Shown here piece after piece: positions 847-60,324 of a DNA stretch of 64,000 bases. This stretch comes from Mesodorylaimus sp. YZB2_4 (lineage: Eukaryota; Nematoda; Enoplea; Dorylaimida; Dorylaimidae), in assembly GCA_030248295.1 (NCBI GenBank), contig JASANH010000138.1, positions 558,001 to 622,000 on the forward strand, given 5' to 3'. The first letter of the stretch is position 1, and the number at the start of each line of letters is the position of its first letter. The translations under genes were made by a program, and so were the position numbers. Below the pieces are notes generated by a model. That model saw only the letters and a list, made by a program, of their open reading frames with translations, did not search any database and had not been told where the DNA came from.

Positions 847-3800
847 ATGAGCTCAAATGGAATTCAGCCGTCGCCCGAAAAAGCGTTGGCATGTGAAGTC
901 GTGGTGAAAGAGGAAAAGTCTTCATCGGGAAAAAAACGTAAACGAAGTCGAAGTCGTTCTACGGAAGATCGCCATCGTAACCGTCGATCGCCCGGTGGCA
1001 GCCATCACAGAACAAGTGATCGGAAGAAACATAAACGATCGGACAAAGAGGACTCTCAGCGGCGAGACGAGAAAACTTCGAAAAGTAAGCATCGTAAAAC
1101 TACGGAGGAAGAGAAACGTCATTTATCTACTGGTAAAAGCAATGATGACCGACACAGATCATCCTCTATCAATGATCGTGGAGCTGATTCGAAAAATAAG
1201 GCATCTTCCGCTGTGAATGCTCTGGAGGACGGAGAAATTGATGACGATGAATTGGCCTCGACCAATGGACAAAAGATCAAGAAAGAGCCATTGTCGCTTG
1301 AAGAACTATTGGCGAAGAAGAAGGCGGAAGCCGAGGAGCAGGCAAAACCGAAATTTCTGTCAAAAGCGGAGAGAGAGGCTTTGGCCCTGAAGCGTCGACA
1401 AGAAGAAGTGGAGGCACAAAGGAAAATAATGGAAGAAGAAAGGAAAAAGAGAATAGATTTTTTTAACAACGGAAAGAAAAAACCGGGTAAGAACTTCTAA
1501 TTTAATTGTTCCCAATTAACTGCTCATTTACATTCTACGGTAACAACCACGAAGTGTGTCTGAATTTGATGTCGCGACAAATGCCAAATTGTAGAGTCTG
1601 TGAATTGGTCATGGCCAATCGGTCAGGTAGGAACGAGCGATCAGAGCGCCCAAACTGTATGTGTACATGGTGAACGGGCAAGCGATCACTTTTCCCCACG
1701 TCGGTCTATTAGTCCGCCAGATATTTCTCCCCTGTGCCAATAGATTGTCATTTTCCTACCCATTAACGCAGTGGCTGGTTGAATGCCGTTCAAACCTTGC
1801 AGAATGTGTTCTATGATCTTGCATTTACTTCGGTTCTTGTTCCGATATCAAATTTAAACACACTTCGTAAAAAGTCGTGTTTTTTGTCACGATTAAGATT
1901 CATAGTCTTGTTGCATTTTAGACGACGATCGGGAAGAACGGGACAGACGGGAACGAAGAGAAAGGCGTGAAAGAGAAGAGCGCGAACGAGAAAGAGAGAG
2001 AGAGAGAGAAAGAGAAGCTCGGAAGAGAGGTGGTGGCGGTGATGATGAAGACAGCGATAATGAACTTCTGGAACGATACAAGGCAGAGATCCGACAAGCA
2101 AAGTCGGCTGGTTATACGGATGCGGATAAGGAAATCCAAGCTATTAAGGTACTTAGTTTTTATCATGCATAAGGTATGCCTACTTCACTGATGGTGGTAC
2201 TATTTTTCAGGAAAGATATCTCGGCCAGATGCAACGCAAAAGAAAACGTGGCCGACGATTGCATGAGCGAAAGTTTATCTTCGATTGGGATGCCTCCGAG
2301 GATACTGCGGTAGATTATAATCCGTTATACAAGGAGCGACACGAGATACAGTTCTTTGGTCGCGGGCATGTTGCTGGTATTGATATCAAAGCTCAGAAAA
2401 AGTCGCAGTCTAAATTTTACGGCGAACTGATGGAGAAGAGAAGAACGGATGAAGAGAAACAACAGGAAGAGTAAGCCGTCGCTTTCTTCTGTTTTGCGCA
2501 GCATAGCAGCTGTAGACTGCTTTTAGGAAGCATCAAAAGAAACTGATCGCTAAAGAGGCCAAACAACGCTGGGATGATCGGCACTGGTCGGAAAAAGAGT
2601 TGGAGTACATGCAAGACCGTGATTGGCGTATCTTTCGCGAGGACTATTGTATCTCGATCAAAGGAGGCAACGTGCCGAAACCACTTCGATCTTGGGAAGA
2701 AGGGGGTCTCCCGAAAGAAATTCTGGACGTCATATATCAAGTTGGATATAAGGTATGAGTTTGTGCGCTCAGAATCTTTAGAGTAGTCACAGCCAGGAGG
2801 TTGAAGATGCATTGAAATGTTTAACGGGTCTTTTACTTTTGCACAACATTCCGCTGTTATTTTAGGAACCAACGCCAATTCAGCGACAGGCCATTCCGAT
2901 TGGATTGCAGAATCGCGATGTTATCGGCGTTGCGGAAACGGGAAGTGGTAAAACGGCGGCGTTTCTCATTCCGTTGTTGGTGTGGTTACATTCTCTGCCG
3001 AAAGCTGAAAGGTACTGTCCCAGGTCTCTGGTGACTTCTTTTTATAAAATTGCTTTTAGGGAAAGAGGAGCACTCGACCAAGGCCCCTACGCTGTCATCC
3101 TCGCACCAACGCGTGAGTTGGCTCAGCAAATCGAAGAAGAGGCCAATAAGTTTGGCACGTTGTTGGGTGTGCGTACCGTATCCGTGATTGGAGGTTTATC
3201 CCGCGAGGATCAAGGTTTCAAATTACAGTTGGGTTGCGAGGTATGCACATCGCATTGCGTAATGGGATCTTTAATTTAAAAACGATGCTGTGCTGTATAT
3301 GTGTTGTAATTTTCCTGTTTTAGGTGGTCATTGCTACTCCTGGTCGACTGGTCGACGTTTTGGAGAATCGATATCTGGTGTTGAACCAGTGTACTTACGT
3401 GATTCTGGACGAAGCCGACCGTATGTTAGACATGGGTTTCGAGCCGAGCGTACAAGCAATTCTGGAGAAGATGCCGGTCAGTAACTTGAAACCAGATACG
3501 GAGGAGGCGGAAGAGGAAGGAAAGCTAATGGAGAACTTCTTTTCGAAGAAGAAATATAGACAAGTAATTTATCTTAGAAAGGTTTTGTTTTGTTCGATTT
3601 TGTTTAACACTTTATTTTTCAGACTGTCATGTTTACGGCTACGATGTCGCCGGCTGTGGAGCGGCTGGCTCGAACGTATTTGCGGAGACCAGCCGTAGTG
3701 TACATCGGCGCTGCTGGTAAACCAACGGAACGCGTAGAACAAGTGGTCATGATGCTTAGCGAGTCTGAGAAACGCAAAAAGCTTGTGCAAATTCTGGAAA

Positions 3801-4345
3801 GTGGGATCGAACCACCAATTATCATCTTTGTTAATCAAAAGAAGGGGGCTGACGTGTTGGCCAAGGGATTGGAGAAACTGGGTGTAAGTTAATTTTAGAA
3901 TTTATTGGACCGTATGGGTAGTAATAAGAGCTTTGCCTTGTAGCACAATCCGTGCGTTCTACACGGCGGCAAAGGCCAGGATCTGCGTGAATACGCTTTG
4001 GCAAGTTTGAAGGACGGAAGCAAGGATATTCTTGTGGCTACGGACGTTGCTGGTCGTGGTATCGACATCAAGGACGTTTCCTTGGTTATCAATTACGATA
4101 TGGCCAAGAGCATCGAGGACTACACCCATCGCATTGGTCGTACTGGTCGCGCTGGCAAATACGGAAAAGCGATAACGTTCTTGACCAAGGAGGATTCGGG
4201 CGTTTTCTACGATTTGAAGCAGGTTCTAACGGAAAGTCCGATATCCACGTGTCCACCCGAACTGGCAAATCATCCTGACTCGCAACAAAAGCCTGGTCTG
4301 TTCGCAATGAAGAAACGAAGAGACGAAGTAGTGTACAGATCTTAG
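847..4345 (+). CDS. DDX23: DEAD-box ATP-dependent RNA helicase DDX23/PRP28 (U5 snRNP)
   Basis: Nine exons: 847-1486, 1922-2148, 2211-2470, 2527-2752, 2866-3011, 3060-3240, 3324-3563, 3623-3883, 3944-4345. Phases close to an 860-residue protein (human DDX23 is about 820). The N-terminus (to about residue 290) is RS/RE/K-rich, as in metazoan PRP28, and exon 2 contains an AGAG-rich run coding RE repeats. The helicase core shows the Q-motif region ([10 protein letters not shown]), motif I AETGSGKT, Ia PTRELAQQ, Ib TPGR, II DEAD, III TAT (SAT in many relatives), [20 protein letters not shown] and [12 protein letters not shown]. In the family, PRP28 helps exchange U1 for U6 at the 5' splice site during spliceosome activation in the nucleus. 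The C-terminal [11 protein letters not shown] matches the family's conserved tail. ATG 847 is the first in-frame Met. Confidence 0.97.
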
Positions 4346-5131
4346 TGACAGATCTGTTGCACCGTCTGATGATGAAAAATTTAGGTATTTGGAGTTTACA
4401 TAACGATTTTTCGTGGTCTTTGTCTCTTGCATCGCGGAAACTTTTTGCGTTGTAACAAAGCCCCTTGAAAAACACTCGTTGACAGTCTAGGACTGAGTTT
4501 TACGACAGCGTACACGACCACTTAACGATTAGTTGTGTCAATCGTATAAACCAGTAATATCTTGCTGGCTGGCGACCCGTTTCATGGTGAGTCCTTGAGA
4601 GCGCCTTCAGTTACGGTACACTGGCTCGACTGTTGAAGTGTTTGCCGCTCTCCGTCTGGCACTGTTCGATAGGACACACTGCAGTGCCTGACGTGCGGTT
4701 ATCTCCTCCCAAACCCATTTGTTGTTGCCACCTTGCTCGTATTCACGCTGATAACGGCCCCATGAGTCTGAATAGGCTATTTGAAGATTAGCTTATCGCT
4801 AGGCTTGTTTTGCCCTGGTTTGAGTTCCGTGGGAGGATTGTTTTGGGGAAGACTGACGATGAGACTGTATGTATGTAGTACCTTTGCGTGTTTATGTAGT
4901 ACCTCTGCTTTTGAAGGCATGTGACAAATGGGCATAGGGGTGAAAGTTGGCCGACAAATAAGTTGACGTCTTCCGCGTACAATGTATTGGCCATATCGGT
5001 TACATCTGAACGTCACTTTTGTCATGTGATGCTTTGTGAACCCACGGGGGGAGATGAGGCAGTTATAAGCTTTGTGGAAGGTTTATTTTCAGAACTTGGG
5101 TCATTGTTTCCAAGGAATAGCGTACGTGATC
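4346..5131. other. intergenic spacer between DDX23 and the SLC5 gene
   Basis: No conserved coding exon is visible. It holds the DDX23 3' UTR and the presumed SLC5 promoter and 5' UTR. The reading frame of SLC5 exon 1 is open upstream of ATG 5132 to about 5072, but that extension has no conserved residues. Confidence 0.4.
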
Positions 5132-8100
5132 ATGGCTCTTCTGGAAGACGGTTCAACAGATGTGAAGCACCTGAGTGTCATCGACTACATCGTCTTCGCG
5201 GCCATGTTGACCATATCGGCTCTAATTGGTGTCTATTACGCGTGTACTGGTGGCAAGCAGAAGACAGCTAGCGAATTCCTGATGGCCAACCGTCAAATGG
5301 GAGTGTTGCCAGTGGCCCTGTCGTTGCTGGCTAGTTTCATGTCGGCCATAACCTTATTGGGTATACCCAGCGAGATGTACTCGTATGGAACGCAGTATTT
5401 ATTGATCGTTGGCTCCTACGTGATCGTCATGTTCATAGCGGGACACCTCTTATTGCCCATATTTTATCAAATGCGACTGACCAGTGCTTACGAAGTGAGT
5501 GCGCTGTATAGTGCTTGGCTATGGATAAAATATGACACGACATGAGTGGCTCTTGTGCCAGTAGTGCGCTAGTCTAGAAAGTGGGGTTCCACACAAGCTC
5601 GCACACAGGCACATCCCTCTGGCACAGGTCAACGAAAGCTCTTAGCACGAAGTGTTGCACCTGACAGCAAATTACAACTTCCTTATTTGAAGAAGATCAC
5701 AATTACTAAATCAGGCGCGAGGCCTTGCATGAAATTGAGGTCAGCTATGCGGAAGAGTGGGCAACTAGTTCAGGACTTTTTCTCTGGCATCCTCGACAGA
5801 TACGACGAAAAACAGCAAAATGCGATCTCCTCCCGTTTTTACAAGCTGCTTGGGACACATGCCAGCGCCTTGCTCCTTGTCTCGACATGAATGATTCGAC
5901 CTCAAGTTTTCTTATCCATAACATAGATATAAGTGTGTGAACATGACAGCAATTTTTGCAAGGAGTCCGCTTCTCACTTGATCTGACCATTCGAGACTAG
6001 GCTGATTAGTTCCAGCTGCAACAAGTGGTTTAGGTTTTTTATTCACGGCTATTTTCAGTACCTGGAGCGACGATTTCACAGATCTAATCGGTTGGCTGGC
6101 ACTATTACCATCATTCTTCAAATGGTAAGGCAAAGTGTGGACTTTCCGGAAGGCACGTCTATGCTTTTAAGTCAGAGGAACCTGACTTGCAGGCACTTAC
6201 GCTCTCGAAACCTTCTGATTTTAGAGCATGTACATGGGCATCGTGTTGTATGCTCCTGCTTTGGCTCTCAATGCGGGTAAGGCATGATGATCCCCCATAA
6301 GTTTTTCATTAACCTTCTTTTTTTATAGTGACTGGCTTGAGTTGGACGATGTCAATTTTACTGCTCGGCATCGTCTGCACTTTCTACACAACCATAGTAA
6401 GCTATCGCAAAGCTGTCTAGATGGATGGAGTGAAACTGTATTTTTCAGGGTGGCATGAAAGCAGTCATGTGGACAGACGTGTTCCAGACGCTGATTATGT
6501 TCTTGGGCATGCTAGCTGTTGTGATTCTCGGTTTGATTGAGATCGGTGGCTGGTCGAACATGTGGGCTGCCATTGAACGTGGGAAAAGGGTTGAATTCTT
6601 TGTGTAAGCATGATTATCGTGCACCAAAGGCTGTATTTAAACCAGTTGATTTCAGCTTCGACCCAAATCCTCTCTTGCGACACTCTTTCTGGTCTCTCGC
6701 CTTTGGAGGCTCGTTCACGTGGCTTGTTATCTACGGCATCAACCAATCCCAAGTACAACGCTACTGCGCCACCAAGACTATGCGCAAAGCTCAAATGTAT
6801 GACTGCTCCTGTGTGAAAAATGAGGCCAATACGTGCGCACTGCTTCTTCCATTTCAGCGCATTGTGGTTGAACTTACCCGGACTCGTCCTCCTGCTCATA
6901 ATCTGTGCTATTACGGGTCTGATCGCGTACGCGTACTATGAATCCTGCGATCCACTTACTGTCAAGACCAAAATTACAAAAAGTGATCAGGTACGGATTG
7001 CTTGAGTGAGAGGACGTATTATCGAAAGAACAGCGACTCTGTTTCAGATTTTACCTCTATTTGTCATGGACGTGTGCAGTAAGATACCCGGATTTGCAGG
7101 ATTGTTCATATCAGCTGTGTTTAGTGGCGCTATGAGGTAAGTGCGGAAGGGAGAGTACGTGGTATTGTTGCCATGCAGGCCAAATAGAAGCACGATACCG
7201 TGGTCTGTAGCGCTTACCATTCAACCATCTTAAGATTTTTTCGCACCTTTCAAAGCAATTTTTTCGCAATTAAATTCTCAGTTAAATTTTCGCAATAAAA
7301 TTAAATTTCTTTTCAATTTTTTTCGCAATTTTTTTCAGTACTGTCTCGTCTGGTGTCAACTCGTTAGCCGCGATAACTTTGGAAGACATCCTGAAACCTT
7401 ACGTGCTTCGGCTATGTTTCAAAAGCATAGCGAAAAACGGACTTTCAGAAGAAAGAGGAGCCATCGTGTCAAAAATATTAGCTTTGAGTTTTGGTCTGCT
7501 TGCAATCGCTCTGGCCTTTGTTGCATCAGCCATGGGTAATGTTCTACAGGTATGCAAAGGTAGAGCCTAAAATGCGAAATTGACGTTGAGACTTTGGTTT
7601 AGTATTTTTCGCGATTGTATGAGCACCATTTTTTAGGCTGCTCTAGGTCTTTTCGGTATGATCGGTGGACCTTTGCTCGGCGTCTTCCTCTTGGGTATTC
7701 TCTTCCCATGCGCAAACTGGAAGGTAAGATTCGTCGCCCTAGCACAATTACCATCAAATACTAATCAGTCCCTATTTCAGGGCGCCCTCTCTGGTCATGT
7801 GTTCGGTGCTGTGGCTTCTCTGTGGGTCGGATTCGGTAGCTATATCTACAAATACCCGCATCCTCGCGCGCCAATGTCAGTCGACGGGTGTTTTTCCAAC
7901 GTGACTATCAATGGGACACATTTACTTGAGGCACTAGAGCTTGAGGAGAAAGAAAGGGAGGACTACGATGGTTTGAGTATCTACCGCCTCTCTTACATGT
8001 GGCAAGGAGCATTCGCTGTGCTGTGCACTATGGCGTTTGGCCTTATCATTAGTCTTCTCACGGGTACGCTTTGAAGTGCTTCTCTCTGCGCTCTTCCGCC

Positions 8101-17449: not shown

Positions 17450-17950
17450 GGCTTGGTGGGGGGGTCCTAAGAGGAGAGGGATTCTTCTCTTTCCCCCTTA
17501 GCCCCTTGAAAAAAAGTTTATAGGGAAGAAGAAAGGGAGGAAGGAAAAGGGGGAGGGCGGGGCAAAGCCTCTTTGCCCTCCCCAAGGCCCACGCCTTTTA
17601 GGCCCAACAAACCATCCACAACACCACCCACCCAACAAAACAAAACACACTTTTCTTGGACGGCGACAAAAAAAGAGGACACCACCCAGACACCACCAAA
17701 AACCAGCACGGACCCCACCCCCCCCCACCCACCCAAAAAGAAGGATTAGATGCCGTCGAGGCAAGTCGGGTCTCAACTCTCTCTCCTGCGTGTGCAGAAA
17801 CTAGTTTTTTTACGTAATAGAGCGAAAGGACAACGGATAGAGATCTTGATATTAATAAGATTATATCGAATTGATTACCTGATTTCACTTTACGGAATCC
17901 TCTGGAGGAGGAAGTATCGTGGTTCAAGGTATTTCACGGGAAGGAGAATA

Positions 17951-18883
17951 ATGGAGAATCAAGCTTCCAATACGATGGAAATCGAAAATGAGTTCATTTT
18001 GGAAAACACCACGTCTGTCAAGAGGGGGTTCGAGTTTGCCTACATCTTATTGCGGTCGAATGATCTGCTCGACAAGAGTGTAGAGGTGATTATGAAAGCC
18101 ATCTCGGAAGAAAATCCAAAAGAAAGACATCCATTATTTGCTTGGCGCTTCGCTCGTGCAATTAAGCTGGCCTATCCAACAAAAGAATCACGTGACCTGG
18201 TCGTCAAGGAAAAATTGTCAATTTTCAATATTCGTGTCGATATTGAAATGCCAAAAGTGTTCACTCCCGAGGGGAGAAAAACCATTCATTTGTTTGGAAT
18301 ACCGATCGACATTGGACACACGGAAGTAGAAAAGTGGCTCAAAGATCACGGATTTCCAAGCAGGTCAGAAATGAGATGGATCACCTATCGTGGAACGGAA
18401 ATTAGATCTGGTGCAAGATCAGTTATTGTGTCGTTGCCCCCTGAGAAGGAAATACCTGGATACATCGACTTCAAGCCTCGTGATCAAAGAAAAGCATTCT
18501 CGGTCCAAGTATGGTATCACGGAATGCCCATTTGGTGCTGGCGATGTAAGAGCAAAGGCCACATGGCAAGGAATTGCTATCTTGCCGACTACCGACCAGA
18601 ACCAGGCTCATATGCAGCGATGGCCAGCGGTGGTGGAGGATTTCGACAAGCTGCTGAATCAGGATCGATAGGACCGACTCCGACAACGAATATATCGAAC
18701 AAGCCTAATGAGATCAGCAATGAAGAGTACCCCCCACTGACAACCTTGACCGCCAATGCACCAGTCATCACTCGACCGAACCGAGAAACAGCTGCCACAG
18801 CAGTGGCAAGTGTTCAAGAAATTCTTCCTTTTTTTCGAAAGAATCGCCTCTTTCGAATCACCATCCATGCGCCTTTACGATAG
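17951..18883 (+). CDS. LINE ORF1: RNA-binding protein with CCHC zinc knuckle
   Basis: ATG 17951 (MENQASNTMEIE) is chosen because the open frame upstream to 17750 is low-complexity leader sequence. In its own frame the protein is about 310 residues and ends at TAG 18881-18883. Residues about 20-200 look like the RRM-like nucleic-acid-binding region of Tx1/L1 ORF1 proteins (for example KTIHLFGIPIDIGHTEVEKW). The zinc knuckle CWRCKSKGHMARNC (C-x2-C-x4-H-x4-C) lies at about 18538-18579. A Gly/Ser/Pro-rich linker follows. At 18829-18835 the frame crosses seven T. Past it, the zero frame reads only about 16 non-conserved residues before the stop, while the -1 frame enters a conserved NADAR domain. 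ORF1 therefore probably continues there by frameshift, or a single T has been lost. Confidence 0.85.
   Translation: MENQASNTMEIENEFILENTTSVKRGFEFAYILLRSNDLLDKSVEVIMKAISEENPKERHPLFAWRFARAIKLAYPTKESRDLVVKEKLSIFNIRVDIEMPKVFTPEGRKTIHLFGIPIDIGHTEVEKWLKDHGFPSRSEMRWITYRGTEIRSGARSVIVSLPPEKEIPGYIDFKPRDQRKAFSVQVWYHGMPIWCWRCKSKGHMARNCYLADYRPEPGSYAAMASGGGGFRQAAESGSIGPTPTTNISNKPNEISNEEYPPLTTLTANAPVITRPNRETAATAVASVQEILPFFRKNRLFRITIHAPLR
18829..18835 (+). promoter_or_regulatory. candidate -1 ribosomal frameshift site (T7) joining ORF1 to NADAR
   Basis: In the ORF1 frame the codons are CCT TTT TTT CGA, so T TTT TTT fits the X XXY YYZ slippery pattern. A -1 slip gives CCT TTT TTT TCG AAA and enters the NADAR frame exactly at its conserved FFSKES start. 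A one-base deletion in a homopolymer, either real or a sequencing error, would look identical. I did not identify a convincing downstream pseudoknot. Confidence 0.5.
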
Positions 18884-19461
18884 ATGGCCAAAGCTTCACT
18901 TCAACTGAGCAATATCTGTATAAGGAAAGGGCGAAAGCAGTGGGTGACAAGGAAGACGAAATGAGGATCATGAACGCGGAATCAGCGGCTGAGACGAAAG
19001 CGATTGGCAAAAAGATCAAGTGGAACGAAAAGGATATGGGCAAGTGGATTGATTTCGCGAAGAAAAAATTGTATTTGGCAAACTTCAAAAAATTCGAATG
19101 CAATCCGGAATTAAGAAAATTTCTGTTTGAAACATCGCCTAAACTACTGGTGGAGGGCAATCCGAACGATAGTCGATGGGGTGTTGGCCTGAGCTGTGAC
19201 GATCTGGAAATTTTTGATCAATCCAAATGGAAAGGGAAAAACGAATTTGGCAAGCTGCTGACGGAACTGCGAGACAAGATGATGACATTGCCGCAGTTTA
19301 AAAAGGAAGTGCATGAAGTGATGGAGAAAAGAAAGCAAGCCGAAATGAGGAAACGACAGCGTAGCAGCGACGGGGAATCGAGTAGAGAGGAGCAATCGGA
19401 CACGCATCCAAAACGTAAGCAGAGCTGTAACAATGTCCTGGATGAGAGCTTGGCTTTTTGA
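18835..19461 (+). CDS. NADAR (YbiA/DUF1768-like) domain encoded inside the LINE
   Basis: Read in the -1 frame from the T7 run, the sequence gives a full NADAR domain of about 155 residues and a basic, Ser-rich tail, ending at TGA 19459-19461. Landmarks in order: FFSKESPLSN, IDGQSFTSTEQYLY (with the Glu placed like the family's catalytic Glu, codon 18907-18909), AAETKAIGKKI, then KLLVEGNPNDSRWGVGL and WKGKNEFGKLLTELRDKM. These match the family's start and its ND..WG.G and GKN.LG..L..LR signatures. Family members hydrolyse N-glycosidic bonds: YbiA acts on riboflavin precursors, and NADAR proteins remove ADP-ribose from guanine. No local ATG precedes the conserved start; the first is 18961, inside the domain. 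Production as an ORF1 fusion is therefore likely. The link to retrotransposition is inference. Confidence 0.88.
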   Translation, partial: SKESPLSNHHPCAFTIDGQSFTSTEQYLYKERAKAVGDKEDEMRIMNAESAAETKAIGKKIKWNEKDMGKWIDFAKKKLYLANFKKFECNPELRKFLFETSPKLLVEGNPNDSRWGVGLSCDDLEIFDQSKWKGKNEFGKLLTELRDKMMTLPQFKKEVHEVMEKRKQAEMRKRQRSSDGESSREEQSDTHPKRKQSCNNVLDESLAF

Positions 19462-19469
19462 AACTGTAA

Positions 19470-22400
19470 GATTGGGTTTCGGGCGGTGCTAGGTCTTGTT
19501 GGTCAATATTTCTTGATCTCATCATAGGTCCAAAAATATTTTTTGCAACTCACAATACTGCTGGGCTGAGAAATAAGGTGCCAAAAATTCTCTCAGTTTT
19601 TGAATTTTTGAAAGTGTATGATGTAGTTTGTATGCAGGAGACGCATTTTCGAAACCACTCTGAAGCGGCCTACTTTGACAGTGTTTTTGAAAGCAGATTT
19701 ATGATTTTCCATAGTTTTTCACAAGAGTATTGTTCAGGGATATGTATGTTGGTCAGTAGGGCTTGTTTGTTCTCGGAAATAACTCGCATAACCAGTATTG
19801 AAGGTAGAGCAATAGCATTGAAGGTTCGATATGAGTCTAGGATTTTTCTTCTTTTTGGAGTATATGCGCCTGCTCAAGAGTCCCCTAGGAAAGCTTTCTT
19901 TGACCAGTTACTCGACAAGGCTTTAGAAAAGTTCCGGTACCACGATGCTGCCTTTTGCATGGGAGATTTCAACTTTGTCGAGTCCAAGGAGCTCGACCGA
20001 AGTGACCTCACGGTCTATCCAGAGGGCGGGCTGAAAGAGTTTTCTAAATTTTCATCTAAATTTAAATTGCACGATATCTTCCGATATCATAATCCGAAGA
20101 CAAAAGAATTCTCTCATCTTGCTCACAGTTCCAAAACTCAAGGGCGACTTGACAGAATTTATGGCACTGAAAACGCGGTTGAGTCGTACAGCAAGCATGA
20201 ATTCATAGAAACAGGACTGTCTGATCATAAGATTTTTCAAATTTCTTTTATATTTAGCTTTGCGCAGATTAAAAGAGGACCTTCTTACTGGAAACTAGAC
20301 GTAGAGTTTTTACAACGTGACGATGCTTTGAAGGAACAAGTCAAAAATAAGCTTTTGTTTTTGGAGGCCTACCTCCAAGGCGCATGCGATAGGGATGTGC
20401 TGAGTGCGTGGGATCAGTGCAAGTCTGAAATAGGACGGTTGTGCAGAGCATCTAAAACTCAGTTCGAGTCCTACGGAAGGAAAAGAAGAGCGGGTATAGC
20501 AAAGGACCTGGAGAGGGCTAAGGCACTGCTGGCACAGTATCCCAGGAGTGACGTGATGAAAGCTGAATACGAGGAAGTAAGGGAAAAACTAAGGAGTTTT
20601 GACCGCGAGGAAATCAGGAAGAGATTGGCAAAAACGCACTATAAAGATTTGGCAACAGACCAGTTCACGCTGGTAACAGCCAAACTAATGCAAAAGAATT
20701 CGGCTGAATTAAGAACAGTGTACGCGATTAAAGATGATAAGGGGATCGTGCATGATAATCAACTGGAGGTGATAGCAGAAGTGAGAAGACAGTACGCATC
20801 GTTGTTCACAAGTGCAGGGACGATCAAGGAAAATGCGGCAAGAATGTTTTTAGACCAACCTCCCTTCGGTACAGCCGACGAGGTAGACAGGGCTGCACTG
20901 GAGGGAGAGATAAGTGAAGACGAGGTAAAAAAAGCGGTACTCTCCTTCAGCAAAAAGAAATCGCCAGGCAGTGACGGGCTGCCAATAGAATTCTATTTGA
21001 CGTTCTTGGCTGAGCTAAGTGTCATTTTGACCAAAGTTTTTGCAGCTAGCTTGCGTCTAGGGGAGTTGCCAGGGAGCTTGTACTTTGGAATAATATCCCA
21101 GTTGTACAAAGGAGAAGGTGATAAAAAGCTTAGGTCCAATTGGAGGCCACTGACCATGCTCAATGTGGACTACAAAATCCTGGCTAAGGTTTTAGTGATA
21201 AGGCTTAGGAACATAATGTGCAAGCTTGTGCACCCCGACCAAACGTGCTCAGTGCCAGGAAGGGACATAAGGGACGGAGTGCTTACTTTGTACAACGCAG
21301 TTGAGTATGTCAATGAGAAGGAAATGGGGGCCATGCTGTTGTCTGTCGATCACATGTCGGCCTTCGACATCATCGAGTGGGAGTATATGCAACGTGTGCT
21401 AGAATGGTTCAGATTGGGCGAGGGGTTCCAGAAATGGATAGGAATAATTTACAAGGATGGCCTAGTTGCTTCTTCGGTTCAGGTGAACGGTTACATATCC
21501 ACCAGCTTCCATCCTAGTAGAGGGGTCAGGCAAGGTTGCCCACTGTCCGCACTGCTATATGTACTGGTGTCGGAAACAGTGACCAATTATATCAGGAGGG
21601 ACAAACTGGTCAAAGGACTGGACATCTTAGGACAAGAGCAAAAGATAAGTAACTATGCGGATGATACGAATTTCTTGGTGTCTGATGAACATTCAGTAGG
21701 TCGTATCATGCACATCTATGAGCACTATAAAAGAGCCAGCGGGGCAACATTGAAAACAACCAAGACAAAGATTCTGTGTCTAGGAAAGAAAGAGCCTGAC
21801 AGCGTAGGACCCGAGCTGAGGCCCTTTGTTGTAGACAAGGTAAAAGTCTACGGATTTTTCATTGGAAAAGAGGGAATGGAAGTTGCGGATAATTGGACTG
21901 GGGTACGGGAGCACATCGCCTCATTAGGCACTAGGATAGCACATTCAGAAGTTTCCCTGTTTGGCAGGATTCATGTAGCAAATACATATTATCTTTCAAA
22001 GTTGTGGTATCTTGGATCAGTAATTGCACCTGGAACTGACTTACAAAAACTCACAGAAAGAATGATTGACAATTATCTTTGGCATCCAGCCAAAGTCAAC
22101 AAAATAAACAAACTAGTGCTGAAGAGGAGCAAAGACCTGGGCGGAATAGGCTACCCGGACATAGGCTGGAAGATACTCGCTTTTAGGTTGATGTTACTCC
22201 TTAGAAGAACCCTGGCGCAGCAGGAAGCCGTGTGGCACAGATCTTTCGACTACTTTTTCGAGCGAGTTAGGCATGCAAAGTTATGTCATGTAGGAGAAAT
22301 AAAGACACCTCGTCTGTACAAAGATATAAGAAGGGCGGAGCTTACAGCGAACTTCAAGCTGCTTGACCAGCACAGCGTCGGGCTGGACACGAAAACATAC

Positions 22401-23042
22401 CCGATAAAGCATGTCAAAACAAAGATGCTCTATAAACACCTGATGGAGAAGAAGACAGGGAAGGCCACAGCTGCCATGCAAAGTTACTGGTGTGAAAAAT
22501 TGAGTACAGCTAATCTGGACTTCAGGGCCTACTGGAGACTAAACACGAGCAAACATGTGGACGGTCTGACCAGGTCGATACACTACAGTCTCCTGTACAA
22601 GGCACTGTACACTCGGAGTAGGATCACCAACTTCGCAGATGTAGATGAGTCGTGCAAGTACTGTGAGACAGTAGCGGGCCAGAGTATCCGCGAGGACGGA
22701 TACCATGTTTTCGTAGAGTGCCAAAGAGTGCTTGAGTTCTGGAAGAAAGTGGAAGGCCTTCTCCAAAGAATGGATCCTTCCATCAAGTTCAGAGATGAGA
22801 ACAAGATCTTCGGTCTGGCGGGCATAAAAAGCAAATCTACTTTCGTGACAGCGAACATAGTTTTGCAGTCAGTCCAGAGATGTGTTTGGTTCGCCAGAAT
22901 GGATTTTGAGGAAAAAGGAAAACTGGTAGATTTATGGGAATCACTGAGGAAGAGACTTTGGGTCTTGACAAAGAGGGCTCAATTCATTTTGGACAGGCAT
23001 CGGTTTGAGGATACTTTTCATCTTTTTTCATGCAAGAATTGA
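19470..23042 (+). CDS. LINE ORF2: AP endonuclease plus reverse transcriptase
   Basis: The frame is open from 19470 (after a stop at 19467) to TGA 23040-23042, about 1190 residues. The endonuclease occupies roughly 19535-20260, with ATHNTAGLRNK, CMQETHF, MGDFNF, GRLDRIYG and GLSDHKIF. The RT occupies about 20960-21790, with SVDHMSAFD (motif A region), GVRQGCPLSALLY and the catalytic YADD. A C-terminal finger CKYCETV...GYHVFVEC at about 22650-22725 is typical of L1/Tx1 ORF2. No RNase H domain is visible. There is no in-frame ATG before the endonuclease's essential start: the first ATG codes the M of MQETH. Initiation must therefore use a non-AUG codon (GTG 19578), re-initiation or another mechanism, or an upstream ATG has been lost. 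Catalytic motifs look intact. Confidence 0.93.
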   Translation, partial: DWVSGGARSCWSIFLDLIIGPKIFFATHNTAGLRNKVPKILSVFEFLKVYDVVCMQETHFRNHSEAAYFDSVFESRFMIFHSFSQEYCSGICMLVSRACLFSEITRITSIEGRAIALKVRYESRIFLLFGVYAPAQESPRKAFFDQLLDKALEKFRYHDAAFCMGDFNFVESKELDRSDLTVYPEGGLKEFSKFSSKFKLHDIFRYHNPKTKEFSHLAHSSKTQGRLDRIYGTENAVESYSKHEFIETGLSDHKIFQISFIFSFAQIKRGPSYWKLDVEFLQRDDALKEQVKNKLLFLEAYLQGACDRDVLSAWDQCKSEIGRLCRASKTQFESYGRKRRAGIAKDLERAKALLAQYPRSDVMKAEYEEVREKLRSFDREEIRKRLAKTHYKDLATDQFTLVTAKLMQKNSAELRTVYAIKDDKGIVHDNQLEVIAEVRRQYASLFTSAGTIKENAARMFLDQPPFGTADEVDRAALEGEISEDEVKKAVLSFSKKKSPGSDGLPIEFYLTFLAELSVILTKVFAASLRLGELPGSLYFGIISQLYKGEGDKKLRSNWRPLTMLNVDYKILAKVLVIRLRNIMCKLVHPDQTCSVPGRDIRDGVLTLYNAVEYVNEKEMGAMLLSVDHMSAFDIIEWEYMQRVLEWFRLGEGFQKWIGIIYKDGLVASSVQVNGYISTSFHPSRGVRQGCPLSALLYVLVSETVTNYIRRDKLVKGLDILGQEQKISNYADDTNFLVSDEHSVGRIMHIYEHYKRASGATLKTTKTKILCLGKKEPDSVGPELRPFVVDKVKVYGFFIGKEGMEVADNWTGVREHIASLGTRIAHSEVSLFGRIHVANTYYLSKLWYLGSVIAPGTDLQKLTERMIDNYLWHPAKVNKINKLVLKRSKDLGGIGYPDIGWKILAFRLMLLLRRTLAQQEAVWHRSFDYFFERVRHAKLCHVGEIKTPRLYKDIRRAELTANFKLLDQHSVGLDTKTYPIKHVKTKMLYKHLMEKKTGKATAAMQSYWCEKLSTANLDFRAYWRLNTSKHVDGLTRSIHYSLLYKALYTRSRITNFADVDESCKYCETVAGQSIREDGYHVFVECQRVLEFWKKVEGLLQRMDPSIKFRDENKIFGLAGIKSKSTFVTANIVLQSVQRCVWFARMDFEEKGKLVDLWESLRKRLWVLTKRAQFILDRHRFEDTFHLFSCKN

Positions 23043-23216
23043 AAAATATGGAATAGAATGAAAACAATAATAAGAATAAAAATATATATAAAAGATTCTT
23101 TGATCATTTAAGGACCAGTTTTTTCGTGTTCTTTGTGGGGACTAAAGGATGCATTGCGATCTTCAGTATGTGTCTGATTTTGTACCGCGTTTACGTGCCA
23201 GTTAAGTAAAATATGC

Positions 23217-23255
<39 letters not shown>

Positions 23256-23257
<2 letters not shown>

Positions 23258-24210
23258 AGAAGAAGCCAGGCCCAGGAACCCACGACAGGACGCCGGAGGC
23301 GCGGGGGGGGAAAAACCCCCAAACCTCAGCAAGACCAAAAATAATCCCCACAAAATCTACCACACAGCTGGGCCGGAAATAGTCTAGCCCATAAAGAAAA
23401 TAACAGGACCGAAAAAGAGTTCAGTCCGTAAAACAGTCAACCAAACACACACACACGCGGGGTTAGCCGAGTTAGACAAACCCCACCAATCCATACCACT
23501 TCGAATTACTCCACCATCGGAACCGGGCAAGGAATCACCTCACCGGCCACCGGAGTCGCGACCAAATCATCACCATCAGCTGACATGCACACATCCGAAA
23601 CCAACGATTCGTCGTTGCTGAATGGGAATCCACCATTGGCCGGATCCGGAAAATACATGGCCAATCGGGCCGGCGACAGCTGCTGCACGCGGGCAATCCA
23701 CATAGCCCAAGCCACCAGGAAACGATGACCCCATCGCTTCCGCCCGGAAGAAGGTGGAGAAACAGGTTCACGTGTGGTGGCACCTGGCATACAGTTGCTC
23801 ACAAGCGTCCGCCGGAACAACCCCTGGGCCACGAAATGCACAAAGCTTACGTTTAGCTTCCAAGTCCGAAGACCTGGCCTGTAAGCTACCCAGGCAAGGG
23901 AGTTCCCGACACGAGTCAACCTCGATGCTCGGTACACACCAACACGCTCCTCCCGTGACGCCAATGTGATAGACGGAATAACACTACATTGGAGAAGACA
24001 CCGCGGGGAGCGGATGGACTCAAAAAGCTTCCAGGCAGGTCACCTAGTCGTAGGTGCCCGAGACATCAACCCGACGGGTTTCAGCCTCGCCTGGAGGAGC
24101 GTATCGAGCGGCCAACGAAGGCAACTGATACGCTGTATGCGGCGGCCAGTCAAGGCAACCACATACTTCTCCGTGTATAAGGCGGCCAGTTAACCCCTAG
24201 TTGGTCTCAC
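23256..24210. other. GC- and CA-rich sequence after the LINE tail, with a minus-strand open frame
   Basis: Immediately after the LINE poly(A), base composition changes to GC/CA-rich, unlike the flanks. A minus-strand frame at 23964-23506 codes 152 residues ending PVPMVE. I recognise no domain in it; it contains RKRWGHRFLVAWAMWIARV and PARLAMYFPDPANGG. The segment could be a piece of another mobile element or a diverged gene. A GGCGGCCAGT word occurs twice within about 40 bp near 24140-24190. Confidence 0.3.
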
Positions 24211-29645: not shown

Positions 29646-31792
29646 ATGGTGGACAAATGCATCCCGCACGATCCTCAAGTAGCCTATCACCACCTATCAG
29701 CCATAAGGCACTATGAGACTTGATTTTTAAATGATTTTATACTATAGATAGACGGAATTCTGCGTAAATTCAATTTGGAGGATGACAAATTAAAGTCCGT
29801 GACGAAACGAATGGGTGACATGATGGAGCGTGGATTGTCGGACGATCCAAAAACGGTGTCAAACTCGTCGTTGAAAATGTTGCCGTCGTTCGTATGCGCT
29901 TTGCCTGATGGCTCGGAGAAGGGTGACCACATGGCGTTAGACTTGGGTGGTACTCATTTTCGCGTATTGGTGGTCAAATTGGAAGGAGGGGGACGTCAAA
30001 GTCAAGAAGGCAAAAAATTCAAAGTGCCTGCTGCGATCATGACTGGCTCTGCTGAAAAGGTATGTTGCGCTGGTTTGATAATTTGCGAAAGGGTTGGTCA
30101 TCACTTTCTCAAGACTGGATGCGGCTCCGCATGAACGACAGTTTTCGGAAGGCTGGTCTGCTCCATTGACCAATATAGCAAATCCATTTCCTTAGCTCTT
30201 CGAGTACCTGGCCGAATGCGTGGGCGGTTTTCTGGAAGAGCGCAAGTTGGAAGGCAAGAAATTACCGCTGGGGTTCACTTTCTCGTTTCCTGCTCGTCAA
30301 GAAGGTTTGCGAGTAGCCCACTTGATCACTTGGACCAAAGGTTACAAGGTCAGTGGTGTCGAAGGACAGGACGTAGCCAAGTTGCTTCAAGAAGCCATAC
30401 ACCGCCGAACTGTAAGTTTGACTCTGATGTGCTTATTCTGTGCCGCAATGCTGTTAGTAATTCAGGGAGGCGACGTGAACGTTGTGGCTGTGGTGAACGA
30501 TACAGTAGGTACTTTGATGTCATCTGCCCACGAGGATCCGATGTGCCAAATCGGCGTTATTCTGGGTAAGAATGACTGACCAAAGCTCACATTAACCCCG
30601 CACGACTTGACCTGACAGGAACTGGCACAAATGCCTGCTACATGGAAGCTATTGAACAATGTCCGAAGATGCAGCAGTATCTGCGAGATCGTGGGTTCGA
30701 CAAGGTCTGGTTCCATGGTCGAGTTTATGCGCAGATGTGACGCTGTGTTTTTCATAGATGATAATAAACATGGAATGGGGTGGTTTCGGAGATTTGGGCG
30801 AGCTAGAAGACATCCGTACCGAATTTGATATCGGCGTGGACAAAGCATCCATAAATCCTGGCCGCCAAATGTGCGTGTACATCTTTTCCTAAACTACTCG
30901 CTCGTTCGTGACGAGATTATTGTTTTAGTTTTGAGAAAATGATCTCTGGAATGTACATTGGCGAGCTGGTGCGACTAATTTTGTTGAAACTGATGCAGGA
31001 GCAGATCATCTTCAGCACTGAACAATGGAGTCAACTCAACTCGCAAAACGGGTTCCCTGGGCGATCCGTGGGTGACATTGTTCGGTAAGAATACGGTAAA
31101 TTCAGCTTTGTCTGACAAAGCTGATGCAGGGCTTTGTTGCAGGGTAACATCCGTCGATGCGAGCAGTGCTGAAAGTATCAGTGCGATTCATGACATTCTA
31201 AAGAAGCTGGGTGCTCCCGAACCGTCCAGCACTGACAGCGCTAACGTGGCTTTCGTGTGCATTTCGGTGATTAAGAGGTCCGCTGAATTGTGTGCCGCTG
31301 GTGAGTTTGACCTTTGACTAGGTAGACGACATTAGCGGGTTTATAAGCACTACGAGTATTCTCTGGCCGCAAGCATCGGGAAGTTTTGGCTATACTCTGT
31401 CACTGTTTATCGCGACATATGTGCTTTAGGTATCGCGGCGATCTTGAATCGTCTGAAGCAGCCAAAGGTAACGATCGGAATCGACGGCGCTGTGTACCGC
31501 TACAACCAGCCGCACTTTGACCAGTTCCTCAAAGATCGATTAGCCGTCTTGATTGAAGTGCCCTGCGAAGTAAGTATATGCAATTGTATGATTGCAATCT
31601 CCAGATTTCCCTTCTCGGATCTTTTAGTTCACCTTGAAATTATCGACTGACGGAAGCGGCCGTGGGGCTGCCCTTGTCGCTGCTGTCGCTTCTCGTTTGA
31701 GCAAGCAAGTCTCAGAAACTAAATCAAGCGCAGAGGCGAAGGAAGTGAAGCCAGCTAAGCAAGAGGCCGACAAAATGTGCGTCATGGCCTGA
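29646..31792 (+). CDS. HK: hexokinase
   Basis: Ten exons: 29646-29678, 29748-30059, 30196-30411, 30466-30565, 30619-30704, 30758-30870, 30929-31084, 31143-31300, 31430-31569, 31628-31792. Phases close to 492 residues, the usual size of a single-unit animal hexokinase. Motifs: phosphate-1 [13 protein letters not shown], sugar-binding [11 protein letters not shown] (Cys is more usual than Ala here), catalytic Asp in [27 protein letters not shown] and the nucleotide site [14 protein letters not shown]. It phosphorylates glucose with ATP at the start of glycolysis. The first exon ([11 protein letters not shown]) is the least certain part: it rests on one ATG and a good phase-0 donor. After the last conserved helix comes a Lys/Glu-rich tail ending CVMA, which fits a CaaX pattern and is not usual for hexokinases. 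Confidence 0.95.
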
Positions 31793-58076: not shown

Positions 58077-60324
58077 TCATTTTTTGTTCTCCTTCACCTT
58101 GTCGTTGGTGGCCGGCGGTTTCTTCAAGGTCGGTTTCGCTTGTTTTCCGGATGCCTGAGCCAAGGCATTCTGAATTGCTTGGCTGTTCGGATCCACACCA
58201 GGCAAAGAACTCACCATGTCTCGCAATGTGTTCGGGTCTGCCATCAAATCGCCAGCATCCTCCGACTGCAAATCCTGAAAAATACGTATATTGGGTGGAC
58301 AAGCCACAACGTTGCGAAATGAACAAAATGATTGCCTCACACTCTCCGAAGTGGCCGACTTTTTTCCTGGATTCTTGGCAGCGGCCCCACTCGTCTTCTT
58401 CCCGTCTTCCGCAGCACGAGGAGCTTTCCCATTGGCCGCGGGCTGTTTTCCAGACTGCGCCATCGACAACTGCAAAGCCAACTTGAGCTGCTCTTCTTCC
58501 GGCATCTGATCCAAGCTCGGCGTCGCTGGTTGACTCGGCCGAGCAGGAGCTGCTTGGCCCATACCAACAGCCGATTGTGGGGTTGTACGAGCTGGCGACT
58601 TTTGATTCGTGCGAGGAGGCGACTTGGGAGTCGTGCGAGCAGGTGATTTTGGAGTTGCGCGAGTAGGCGACTTGGGAGTCGTACGAGCGGGAGACTTTGG
58701 AATCGTAGGAGCAGGCGACTTTGGGGTTGTGCGAGGAGGCGACTTTGAAGTCGTCGGAACCGCTGATTGTGGAGTCGCGCGGGTCGGCGACTTTTGAGTC
58801 GTGCGAGGCGGCGACTTAGGAGTCGGGGTACGAGCAGTCGACTTTAAAGTCGTACGAGCAGGCGATTTCGGAGTTGCGCGAGTAGGCGACTTGGGAGTGG
58901 CACGAGCGGGAGACTTTGGAGTCTTACGAGCAGCCGACTGTGAAGGCGTTCCGACAGGGGCTGAAGTAAGATTCTCCGTTATCGAGTACTTCCAAATCAA
59001 TGAACTCTATCACTTACGACTTGAACCCACTGCTGGTTGCTGCTCACTGACGCTAGCAGCAACTGCCGCAGCAGTTTCTTGTTCTTGACGAGCACGCTGC
59101 TCCTCCATGCTTGCGCGAAGAGCCAAAGCTAACTCCGGGTCCAAAGTAGGATCGACGTCCCCGAAGTTGCCACCCTGAGCAGAAGTGACGGTCGGAGAAG
59201 CCGTGCCTGTTTCGCTGCGCACGATCGGGGAAGTCAGCAACGCTTGCTGCAAGTCCGAGCCAGACGGGACAATGAGCATGTGCGATCTGAAAGAAATCAG
59301 AACTGTAATTAGTCATTCGAATTGTAAGCCACAACACACTCGCCCCGTTCCGTCTTTTCCATTGATCATTTCCAAAAACGGCTTCAGCCTTTCCTGATTG
59401 GCAGTAGTCTGGTCCCCGAAGCAGATGATGTCCACGTTCACCTTTTCCTTCTTGAACATTTTTGCTGTTTCCATCAGCTAATGCAGAAAAAGCACTTTGG
59501 ACATTAAACACACAAACTGTTTCCACATTAAACTCATGCGTTCTTCCGCCGGAATTCTCGCCAACTTTAACAAGAACCTTAGCACTTACCCTGGCGTCAT
59601 CCTCGACAAACAGACTGCCAACGAACAAAATAATGCGCGGCTTGTGATTACGATTTTGGCGATTCTTCAAAGCGAGCTGCAAAAGATCAAGGCCTTCAAC
59701 TTATGCTTACAGTATGGATAAAAAACTTCATCCATACATGAGCGATTTTGAGACCCGTCACAAATTTTGACGAGCCACTTATGGGGATATCATGCAGCTT
59801 CGTGAAGAGATTGTTGTGGTTCGTCGTCAAACTGGCCAGAACAGTCACGCTGCTAAAATGGTGAGGGCTTTTGGGCATCTGTAAGGCACGAATCGTCCCC
59901 ATGCATGGTCCCATGGGTGCCTAACGAGGCCTAGCCATCAACGGATGACAAAACTCTAGAAATCATTATAAAATCCACCCATGCCCTACCCAGGGTCCTA
60001 TCGGAAAACTAGGAAGATTTTCAGCGGGGTCGATAACCCAACTTCGGGTCATCCAGGCTATTGATTCAACGAAGAGTGAAACAAGGCAAACTCACTCAGC
60101 CATACTCAGCAGCCCAACCGTGCATTCGGGACTCATTCGCAATTTGCACTGAATCAGCAAATTCGCGGCGTCTTGTTGAACATGCAACCGGCTCGGGCTG
60201 AAGTCGCCATTGCGCATGTCTTCAGCATTGTCGAAACTGCAAAATAGATGGACCATTTCAGAAATAGTCAAAGGCGGAGGACTGAGACAAAAACTCACCA
60301 TATCATCGTGCTTTCTAGCACCAT
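58077..60324 (-). CDS. PSMD4: 26S proteasome ubiquitin receptor Rpn10/PSMD4 with a repeat insertion
   Basis: Eight minus-strand exons, 5' to 3': 60324-60299, 60236-60096, 59852-59738, 59676-59590, 59477-59344, 59286-59018, 58960-58341, 58274-58077. Phases close to 529 residues (human PSMD4 is 377). The vWA domain is complete, from MVLESTMICFDNAEDMRNGD through HLALKNRQNRNHKPRIILFV and KKEKVNVDII to NGKDGTGSHM. UIM1 is DPELALALRASMEEQ and UIM2 EEEQLKLALQLSMAQ. Between them lie about 125 residues made of some 15 copies of an eight-residue TPKSPART-type unit. The C-terminus has QSEDAGDLMADPNTLRDMVS and a Lys-rich end. Rpn10 anchors polyubiquitinated proteins at the proteasome lid-base junction. 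The intron after exon 5 has a GC donor (GCGAGT), chosen because it restores TGSH. Confidence 0.96.
58575..58950 (-). repeat. 24 bp coding minisatellite in PSMD4 exon 7
   Basis: About 15 tandem 24-base units code variants of R-T-T-P-K-S-P-A. Variants include TIPKSPAR, TNQKSPAR, TSKSPPR and TPQSAV. Units differ by few substitutions, so the array is diverged but still in frame. It supplies many SP/TP sites and evenly spaced positive charges. Confidence 0.9.

Follow-up and report, generated by a model that had tools for sequence, protein, structure and literature searches.

We describe here a clade of L1-group LINE retrotransposons in a nematode genome whose ORF1 protein (ORF1p) is, almost certainly, of type I and carries a YbiA-type NADAR domain at its C-terminus. 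An earlier reading made from the letters of the DNA (the sequence-only reading) had placed a complete NADAR domain within a LINE in the window, i.e., the whole stretch of 64,000 nucleotides that was analyzed, and our searches bear this out. When the translation of 18727–19458 was run against Pfam, as that reading had advised, it matched PF08719 with an E value of 1.2e-30 and 107.4 bits (cut-off 35.1) over profile positions 9–162 of 163, with the ORF2 endonuclease and reverse transcriptase (RT) lying downstream. The window sequence also matched solved NADARs (8bau, E 2.6e-11; YbiA 2b3w, E 5e-7), and PF08719 scored above its cut-off in all eight ORF1-NADAR proteins scanned, three of which were database relatives.

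Structure of the element and its ORFs

The LINE spans ~17744–23255 on the forward strand, beginning with GATTAG and closing with a poly-A tail at ~23224–23255. Its 5' end is common to the sibling loci L034, L045 and L032 (L033 follows from the next base), and the flanks differ between loci. A likely target-site duplication, read from the sequence as AAAAAGAAG with no strand assigned, has its upstream copy at 17735–17743, and the downstream copy emerges from the poly-A at ~23251–23259, where the poly-A makes the length of the duplication ambiguous. All five inspected LINE copies possess an A-rich tail, with a target-site duplication that is plausible in the window copy and ambiguous in the others. 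At the level of DNA, 10 of the 40 scored matches to the 3' end of the subfamily were at least 96% identical, the window itself counted, and judged by its sequence the subfamily is young.

The ORF2 frame (19470–23042, forward strand, 1190 aa) contains the endonuclease at ~19545–20228 (Exo_endo_phos, E 3.7e-10) and the RT at ~21126–21854 (RVT_1, E 9.7e-27). The closest solved relative of a sibling ORF2 was human L1 ORF2p (E 1.1e-68), with R2 far behind (E 1.6e-8), and on these solved-protein matches of ORF2 we assign the element to the L1 group. No ATG precedes the endonuclease motif in the ORF2 frame of the window (19462–19640) or of L034, L037, L038 and L039, so that translation of ORF2 may start at a non-AUG codon or by reinitiation.

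Upstream, the N-terminal part of ORF1 in the window copy runs on the forward strand from an ATG at 17951 to 18835, within a CCHC-bearing frame of 17750–18883, and comprises two RRM-like folds (~18032–18238 and 18272–18517, coordinates transferred from AlphaFold and Foldseek results for sibling L034), a CCHC zinc knuckle recognized by its sequence pattern (CWRCKSKGHMARNC, 18536–18577) and a linker. The NADAR domain, delimited by Pfam, PDB sequence matches and the sibling fold model, occupies 18838–19281 on the same strand and is followed by a charged C-terminal tail with the stop codon (19282–19461), for which confidence in the sibling model is low from residue 473 onward. The span 18835–19461 given by the sequence-only reading is thus correct for the open NADAR frame and too long for the domain proper. 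Between the two parts, a T-run at 18829–18835, whose length is unlike that in sibling copies, puts NADAR out of frame with ORF1, as either a real difference or an assembly error. Programmed -1 frameshifting at this run as a means of producing NADAR was ruled out, since siblings read through in one frame: ORF1-NADAR is a single open frame in L008/L034 and L009/L035. The placement of NADAR between ORF1 and ORF2 therefore holds for the window copy alone, whereas in siblings the domain forms the C-terminus of ORF1 itself.

Architecture of the intact ORF1 protein

In both L034 and L035, translation from the first plausible ATG runs uninterrupted for 503 aa, and elements of four other subfamilies reach 480–500 aa. 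Seven elements retrieved from five subfamilies (L034, L035, L039, L040, L041, L042 and L044) have an ORF1-NADAR frame that stays open from a plausible ATG. Intact proteins of 480–503 aa share the order two RRM-like folds, CCHC knuckle, NADAR and tail, with one NADAR per ORF1 in the five scanned. The CCHC pattern is present in all five, with Pfam zf-CCHC above its cut-off in one (L039) and below it in four.

Structure prediction, also advised by the sequence-only reading, agrees with this order. An AlphaFold model of the L034 ORF1, for which ten relatives were aligned, has a mean pLDDT of 72.1. It shows two RRM-like folds followed by the knuckle region, a linker that is disordered, and NADAR, the last with pLDDT of 89–97 per ten residues. 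Foldseek returned 8bau as the best match to the model (E 1.9e-9, TM-score to target 0.73), then 2b3w (E 2.1e-8, 0.74), and NADAR is accordingly predicted to adopt the YbiA fold. Tandem-RRM structures came next, the best being 9cb5 (E 2.7e-5) with a TM-score to target of only 0.37, because the two folds lie differently. Under the five-type ORF1 scheme, where an RRM next to a CCHC knuckle defines type I in the accessible text of the source (PMC4120745), the modeled ORF1 of the window family is type I plus a C-terminal NADAR.

Retention of NADAR across the genome

To place the window copy among its relatives, NADAR, ORF1 and RT matches in the 145 Mb nematode assembly were compared by position. 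Of 75 NADAR matches, at least 39 (33 loci) lie beside a same-strand ORF1 match (no more than 1.5 kb upstream) or RT match (no more than 4 kb downstream), a lower bound, as the count took in all 45 ORF1 matches and 37 of the 150 RT matches. NADAR follows downstream in 32 of the 45 ORF1 matches and is absent from 13. Among near-complete ORF1 matches (at least 180 of 209 query residues, window counted), it lies just downstream in 17 of 20; the exceptions are C946 and C313 (contig ends inside ORF1) and C250, where an internal deletion has removed NADAR and the front of ORF2. The remaining ORF1 matches without a downstream NADAR are C336 and nine shorter or weaker ones. The order proposed by the sequence-only reading is thus repeated in LINE copies across this genome, and its alternative of a domain confined to a single copy fails. 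That a NADAR gene had inserted by chance into one LINE could be argued from the frame break in the window; set against 17 of 20 near-complete matches and three explained exceptions, the chance of this is negligible, and we regard it as ruled out by genome-wide retention. Around 16 RT places of other LINE clades (29–34% identity, 150 of 424 candidates scored, compared by eye), there was no NADAR match within 8 kb.

Among the 36 NADAR matches that these distance limits did not link to a LINE are LINE pieces (C120, C283) and host genes that contain introns or whose domains are divergent (C18, C230, C38 and C22). Two of these host genes, L030 (C18:335139–338330, split over several open pieces) and L051 (C230), possess two NADAR domains, and the very divergent C230 gene could be the orthologue of SNA-3. 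A further untied NADAR piece is multi-copy (L052 on C289 and L053 on C491, with similar match positions on C929, C765, C936 and C134); it is open over ~97–100 aa, covers profile positions 2–103 and may be the opening exon of a host gene family that has expanded and has no relation to the LINE.

Selection and active site

Among the 10 pairs formed by five intact ORF1s, dN was 0.24–0.35 for NADAR, compared to 0.37–0.51 for the RRM-CCHC part and 0.49–1.19 for the linker; ORF2 gave 0.24–0.32 (six pairs, four elements). NADAR thus evolves slower than the RNA-binding half of its own protein and about as slowly as ORF2, and its dN was 0.23–0.42 once the tail and a sixth subfamily were included (15 pairs). 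With pS of 0.85–0.95, synonymous differences in NADAR are saturated or nearly so, and therefore the dN/dS ratio proposed by the sequence-only reading cannot be given, though the selection that it was meant to detect is evident: a dN this low at saturated synonymous sites indicates, from sequence comparison, strong purifying selection on NADAR. Such selection would also be expected of a domain that did no more than bind RNA or partners.

The active site was assessed in an alignment of 27 NADAR copies from the 30 loci fetched (75 matches), with broken copies and the window copy included and three host loci left out; gaps were left out of the counts, and several copies are near-identical and hence not independent. 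In the numbering of the P. nicotianae NADAR, with residue roles as given in the accessible text of PMC11543638, the expected residue was found at E43 in 25/25 copies, D130 in 27/27, E125 in 25/27, W133 in 25/27, K75 in 25/26 and W89 in 25/26, whereas the mean majority share over 148 scored columns was 0.71. A Glu at the E125 position, not Asp or His, is what distinguishes the YbiA subfamily. The K50 position is more variable, with 19 K, 5 R and 1 E among 25 aligned copies, and the window's own subfamily has R. The equivalent change in the E. coli C7 NADAR, K95R, is reported to have retained hydrolysis in vitro and lost toxin rescue (PMC11543638).

A second ORF1 scaffold and the number of captures

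With the NADAR piece alone as query, none of 142 candidate proteins reached E 0.001. The ORF1 alignment identified at least three database relatives among 7,994 candidates scored, of which P0001 and P0002 are of the CCHC type and P0003 is not. With the NADAR part of P0003 as a query, 86 hits were obtained (itself counted), and a profile of 20 whole-aligned hits matched both NADAR (2.2e-35) and human L1 ORF1p (7.2e-11). The model predicted for P0003, with a mean pLDDT of 90.9, consists of a coiled coil, RRM, CTD and NADAR, and Foldseek returned 8bau, YbiA and the L1 ORF1p trimer for it. An N-terminal HMM of those 20 proteins labels 33 of 88 proteins as L1-type ORF1, including the 20 that built it; P0003 and 32 further proteins are thus L1-type coiled-coil/RRM ORF1p fused to NADAR, and all 20 of the coiled-coil-type proteins examined keep both active-site Glu. 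NADAR therefore also sits on an L1-type coiled-coil/RRM scaffold, where membership in a LINE is judged by likeness of the ORF1 sequence. Beyond these, 447 NADAR relatives were found in bacterial genomes with the NADAR alignment (80 kept, top identity 41%) and 587 in phage records, all below 60% identity, and a scan of viral contigs gave 47 loci with the NADAR alignment alone and no match with the ORF1 alignment.

The phylogenies are compatible with one capture or with two. The CCHC-type LINE NADARs alone form one group in each of five tree sets. A single group of all LINE NADARs was rejected in earlier trees (p-AU 0.024 and 9e-48), but these rejections are suspect, the second less surely so, because the four earlier trees had counted some L1-type ORF1 proteins (P0042 and P0045 among them) as 'other'. 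Once relabeled, the trees placed all 42 LINE-type NADARs on one side of a branch (support 98/93 and 100/98), the others being 20 bacterial or phage sequences in each tree, drawn from 43 loci that had been sampled out of 127, with unlabeled database proteins, host genes, P0080 and the long-branch phage sequences L177 and L180 left out. Adding half of the unlabeled proteins and the host C18 gene, with L174 also omitted, yielded a best tree that splits the LINE NADARs, though a single group was not rejected (p-AU 0.177), nor, in one of the earlier trees, was a topology in which the CCHC-type LINE NADARs group with the C18 domains of the host (p-AU 0.53). The divergent host NADAR at C230 fell outside the LINE NADAR group, on a branch so long that its placement is unsure. 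Given strong grouping in the relabeled trees and no such grouping in the best enlarged tree, one capture with exchange of scaffold and two separate captures both fit these phylogenies.

Relation to known systems

Tx1 LINEs form a clade of the L1 group. A 2025 study reported that several Tx1 LINE families of oyster carry NADAR in ORF1 and that Ectocarpus Gypsy carries it in Pol, and suggested processing of RNA intermediates (PMC12477816). Judged from the accessible text of that study, the ORF1-NADAR fusion described here is not a first sighting, and the statement of the sequence-only reading that the domain has no well-described role in non-LTR elements was fair as to role, with its presence in LINE ORF1 already in print. 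No other report of NADAR, YbiA or DUF1768 in retrotransposons was found in the open-licence literature. Relative to what the accessible text describes for oyster and alga, the nematode family, the anatomy of its ORF1, retention, selection, active site and the second scaffold are new. The Pacific oyster LINEs resemble the window LINE in bearing a NADAR-like domain in ORF1 and differ in host phylum, whereas Ectocarpus Gypsy, which also carries a YbiA-type NADAR, is an LTR element with the domain in Pol rather than ORF1 (PMC12477816). Proteins such as P0003, P0005, P0006 and P0050–P0052 are likewise LINE-type ORF1 proteins with a NADAR at the C-terminus, but their scaffold is a coiled coil, one RRM and a CTD where the window family has a pair of RRM-like folds and a CCHC knuckle. 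Gain of an extra ORF1 domain has a parallel in CR1/L2 LINEs with esterase-type (type IV) and PHD-bearing ORF1, which involve other domains and other clades (PMC4120745).

Outside retrotransposons, DarT1-associated NADAR antitoxins share the fold and the ADP-ribose chemistry, but as described they are bacterial, have Asp at the E125 position and adjoin a DarT toxin (PMC11543638). The LINE domain is not a DarTG1 antitoxin, having Glu in place of Asp in a genome that returned no DarT match (the control of this search was detected in 1 of 14 genomes). NADARs of animal positive-strand RNA viruses likewise belong to selfish elements replicating through RNA, and are reported as parts of a polyprotein instead of an ORF1 RNA-binding protein (PMC9503650). 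SNA-3 is described as an essential nematode trans-splicing factor with three NADARs (PMC9303266); the LINE ORF1, with one NADAR, is not this long three-NADAR protein.

Possible function of the ORF1-borne NADAR

NADAR function in eukaryotes, animals included, has been called unclear (PMC11125620, accessible text), while the biochemistry of NADARs as enzymes that reverse ADP-ribosylation of nucleic acids is established: they are reported to hydrolyze ADP-ribosyl-guanine in DNA (PMC11543638) and to reverse guanosine ADP-ribosylation on RNA (PMC11833690). We give roughly an even chance to a catalytic role in which NADAR acts as an ORF1-tethered ADP-ribose hydrolase within the LINE ribonucleoprotein (RNP), its natural target given that it is tethered to an RNA-binding protein. 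Under this proposal, the RRMs and knuckle would let ORF1p coat LINE RNA and hold NADAR beside it, and NADAR would hydrolyze an adduct attached by an N-glycosidic bond, either ADP-ribose or something related. The likeliest substrate would be ADP-ribosyl-guanine on LINE RNA or nascent cDNA, and removal of the adduct would keep reverse transcription and translation unblocked. The genome contains 10 matches to the PARP catalytic domain on six contigs, nine of them over the cut-off. More tentatively, we raise the possibility that LINEs with at least two ORF1 types keep the hydrolase because animal hosts defend themselves by ADP-ribosylating the RNA or cDNA of retrotransposons, in an undescribed arms race in which NADAR passed between unrelated ORF1 scaffolds.

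Other roles must be weighed against hydrolysis within the RNP. NADAR may have lost catalysis and serve ORF1p as an extra module for binding RNA or partners or for assembly, in keeping with the modular nature of ORF1 RNA-binding proteins (PMC4120745, as far as accessible) and with the K to R change in the window subfamily; yet the active-site Glu positions are retained in 25/25 and 25/27 LINE copies and in all 20 coiled-coil-type proteins examined, well above the mean majority share among the LINE copies, and we find such a loss rather doubtful. Similar chemistry might instead serve RNA processing as in SNA-3. The host is a nematode, mutations of NADAR residues are reported to impair SNA-3, which contacts the cap-binding complex (PMC9303266), and the residues mutated in its NADAR2 (E, D and W) look equivalent, though without an alignment, to those kept in the LINE. 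Against this stand the oyster LINE and algal Gypsy NADARs (PMC12477816), which argue against a purely nematode role, the presence of NADAR on other LINE-type ORF1 proteins, and the position of the host C230 NADAR outside the LINE group, unsure as that placement is; an SNA-3-like role thus seems unlikely. For phage NADARs, soluble derivatives of ADP-ribose or immune signals made from NAD have been proposed as substrates in place of nucleic acid, but the same authors favor macromolecular targets for those of animal RNA viruses (PMC9503650, accessible text), and fusion to an RNA-binding protein would point to an RNP target, making a soluble substrate improbable here.

A young LINE keeping an intact-looking hydrolase on its RNA-binding protein offers a direct genetic test of NADAR role, and if the domain matters for the LINE, nucleic-acid ADP-ribosylation would become a candidate for a new level at which transposons are controlled.

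Surroundings of the insertion

The flanks of the LINE insertion (17498–17743 and 23256–23450) are low-complexity and C/A-rich. Host exons with Pfam matches to a DEAD-box helicase (2866–4342), a sodium:solute symporter (5069–5542) and hexokinase (29748–30131) were observed in the window, whose neighborhood, by these sequence matches, is one of ordinary nuclear genes. The genome as a whole has 133 matches to the cuticle-collagen N-terminal domain, a hallmark of nematodes. Further along the window, 58513–58990 holds a tandem repeat whose units are spaced 24 bases apart; translated from the reverse strand, it reads as a Ser/Pro/Lys/Thr-rich repeat.
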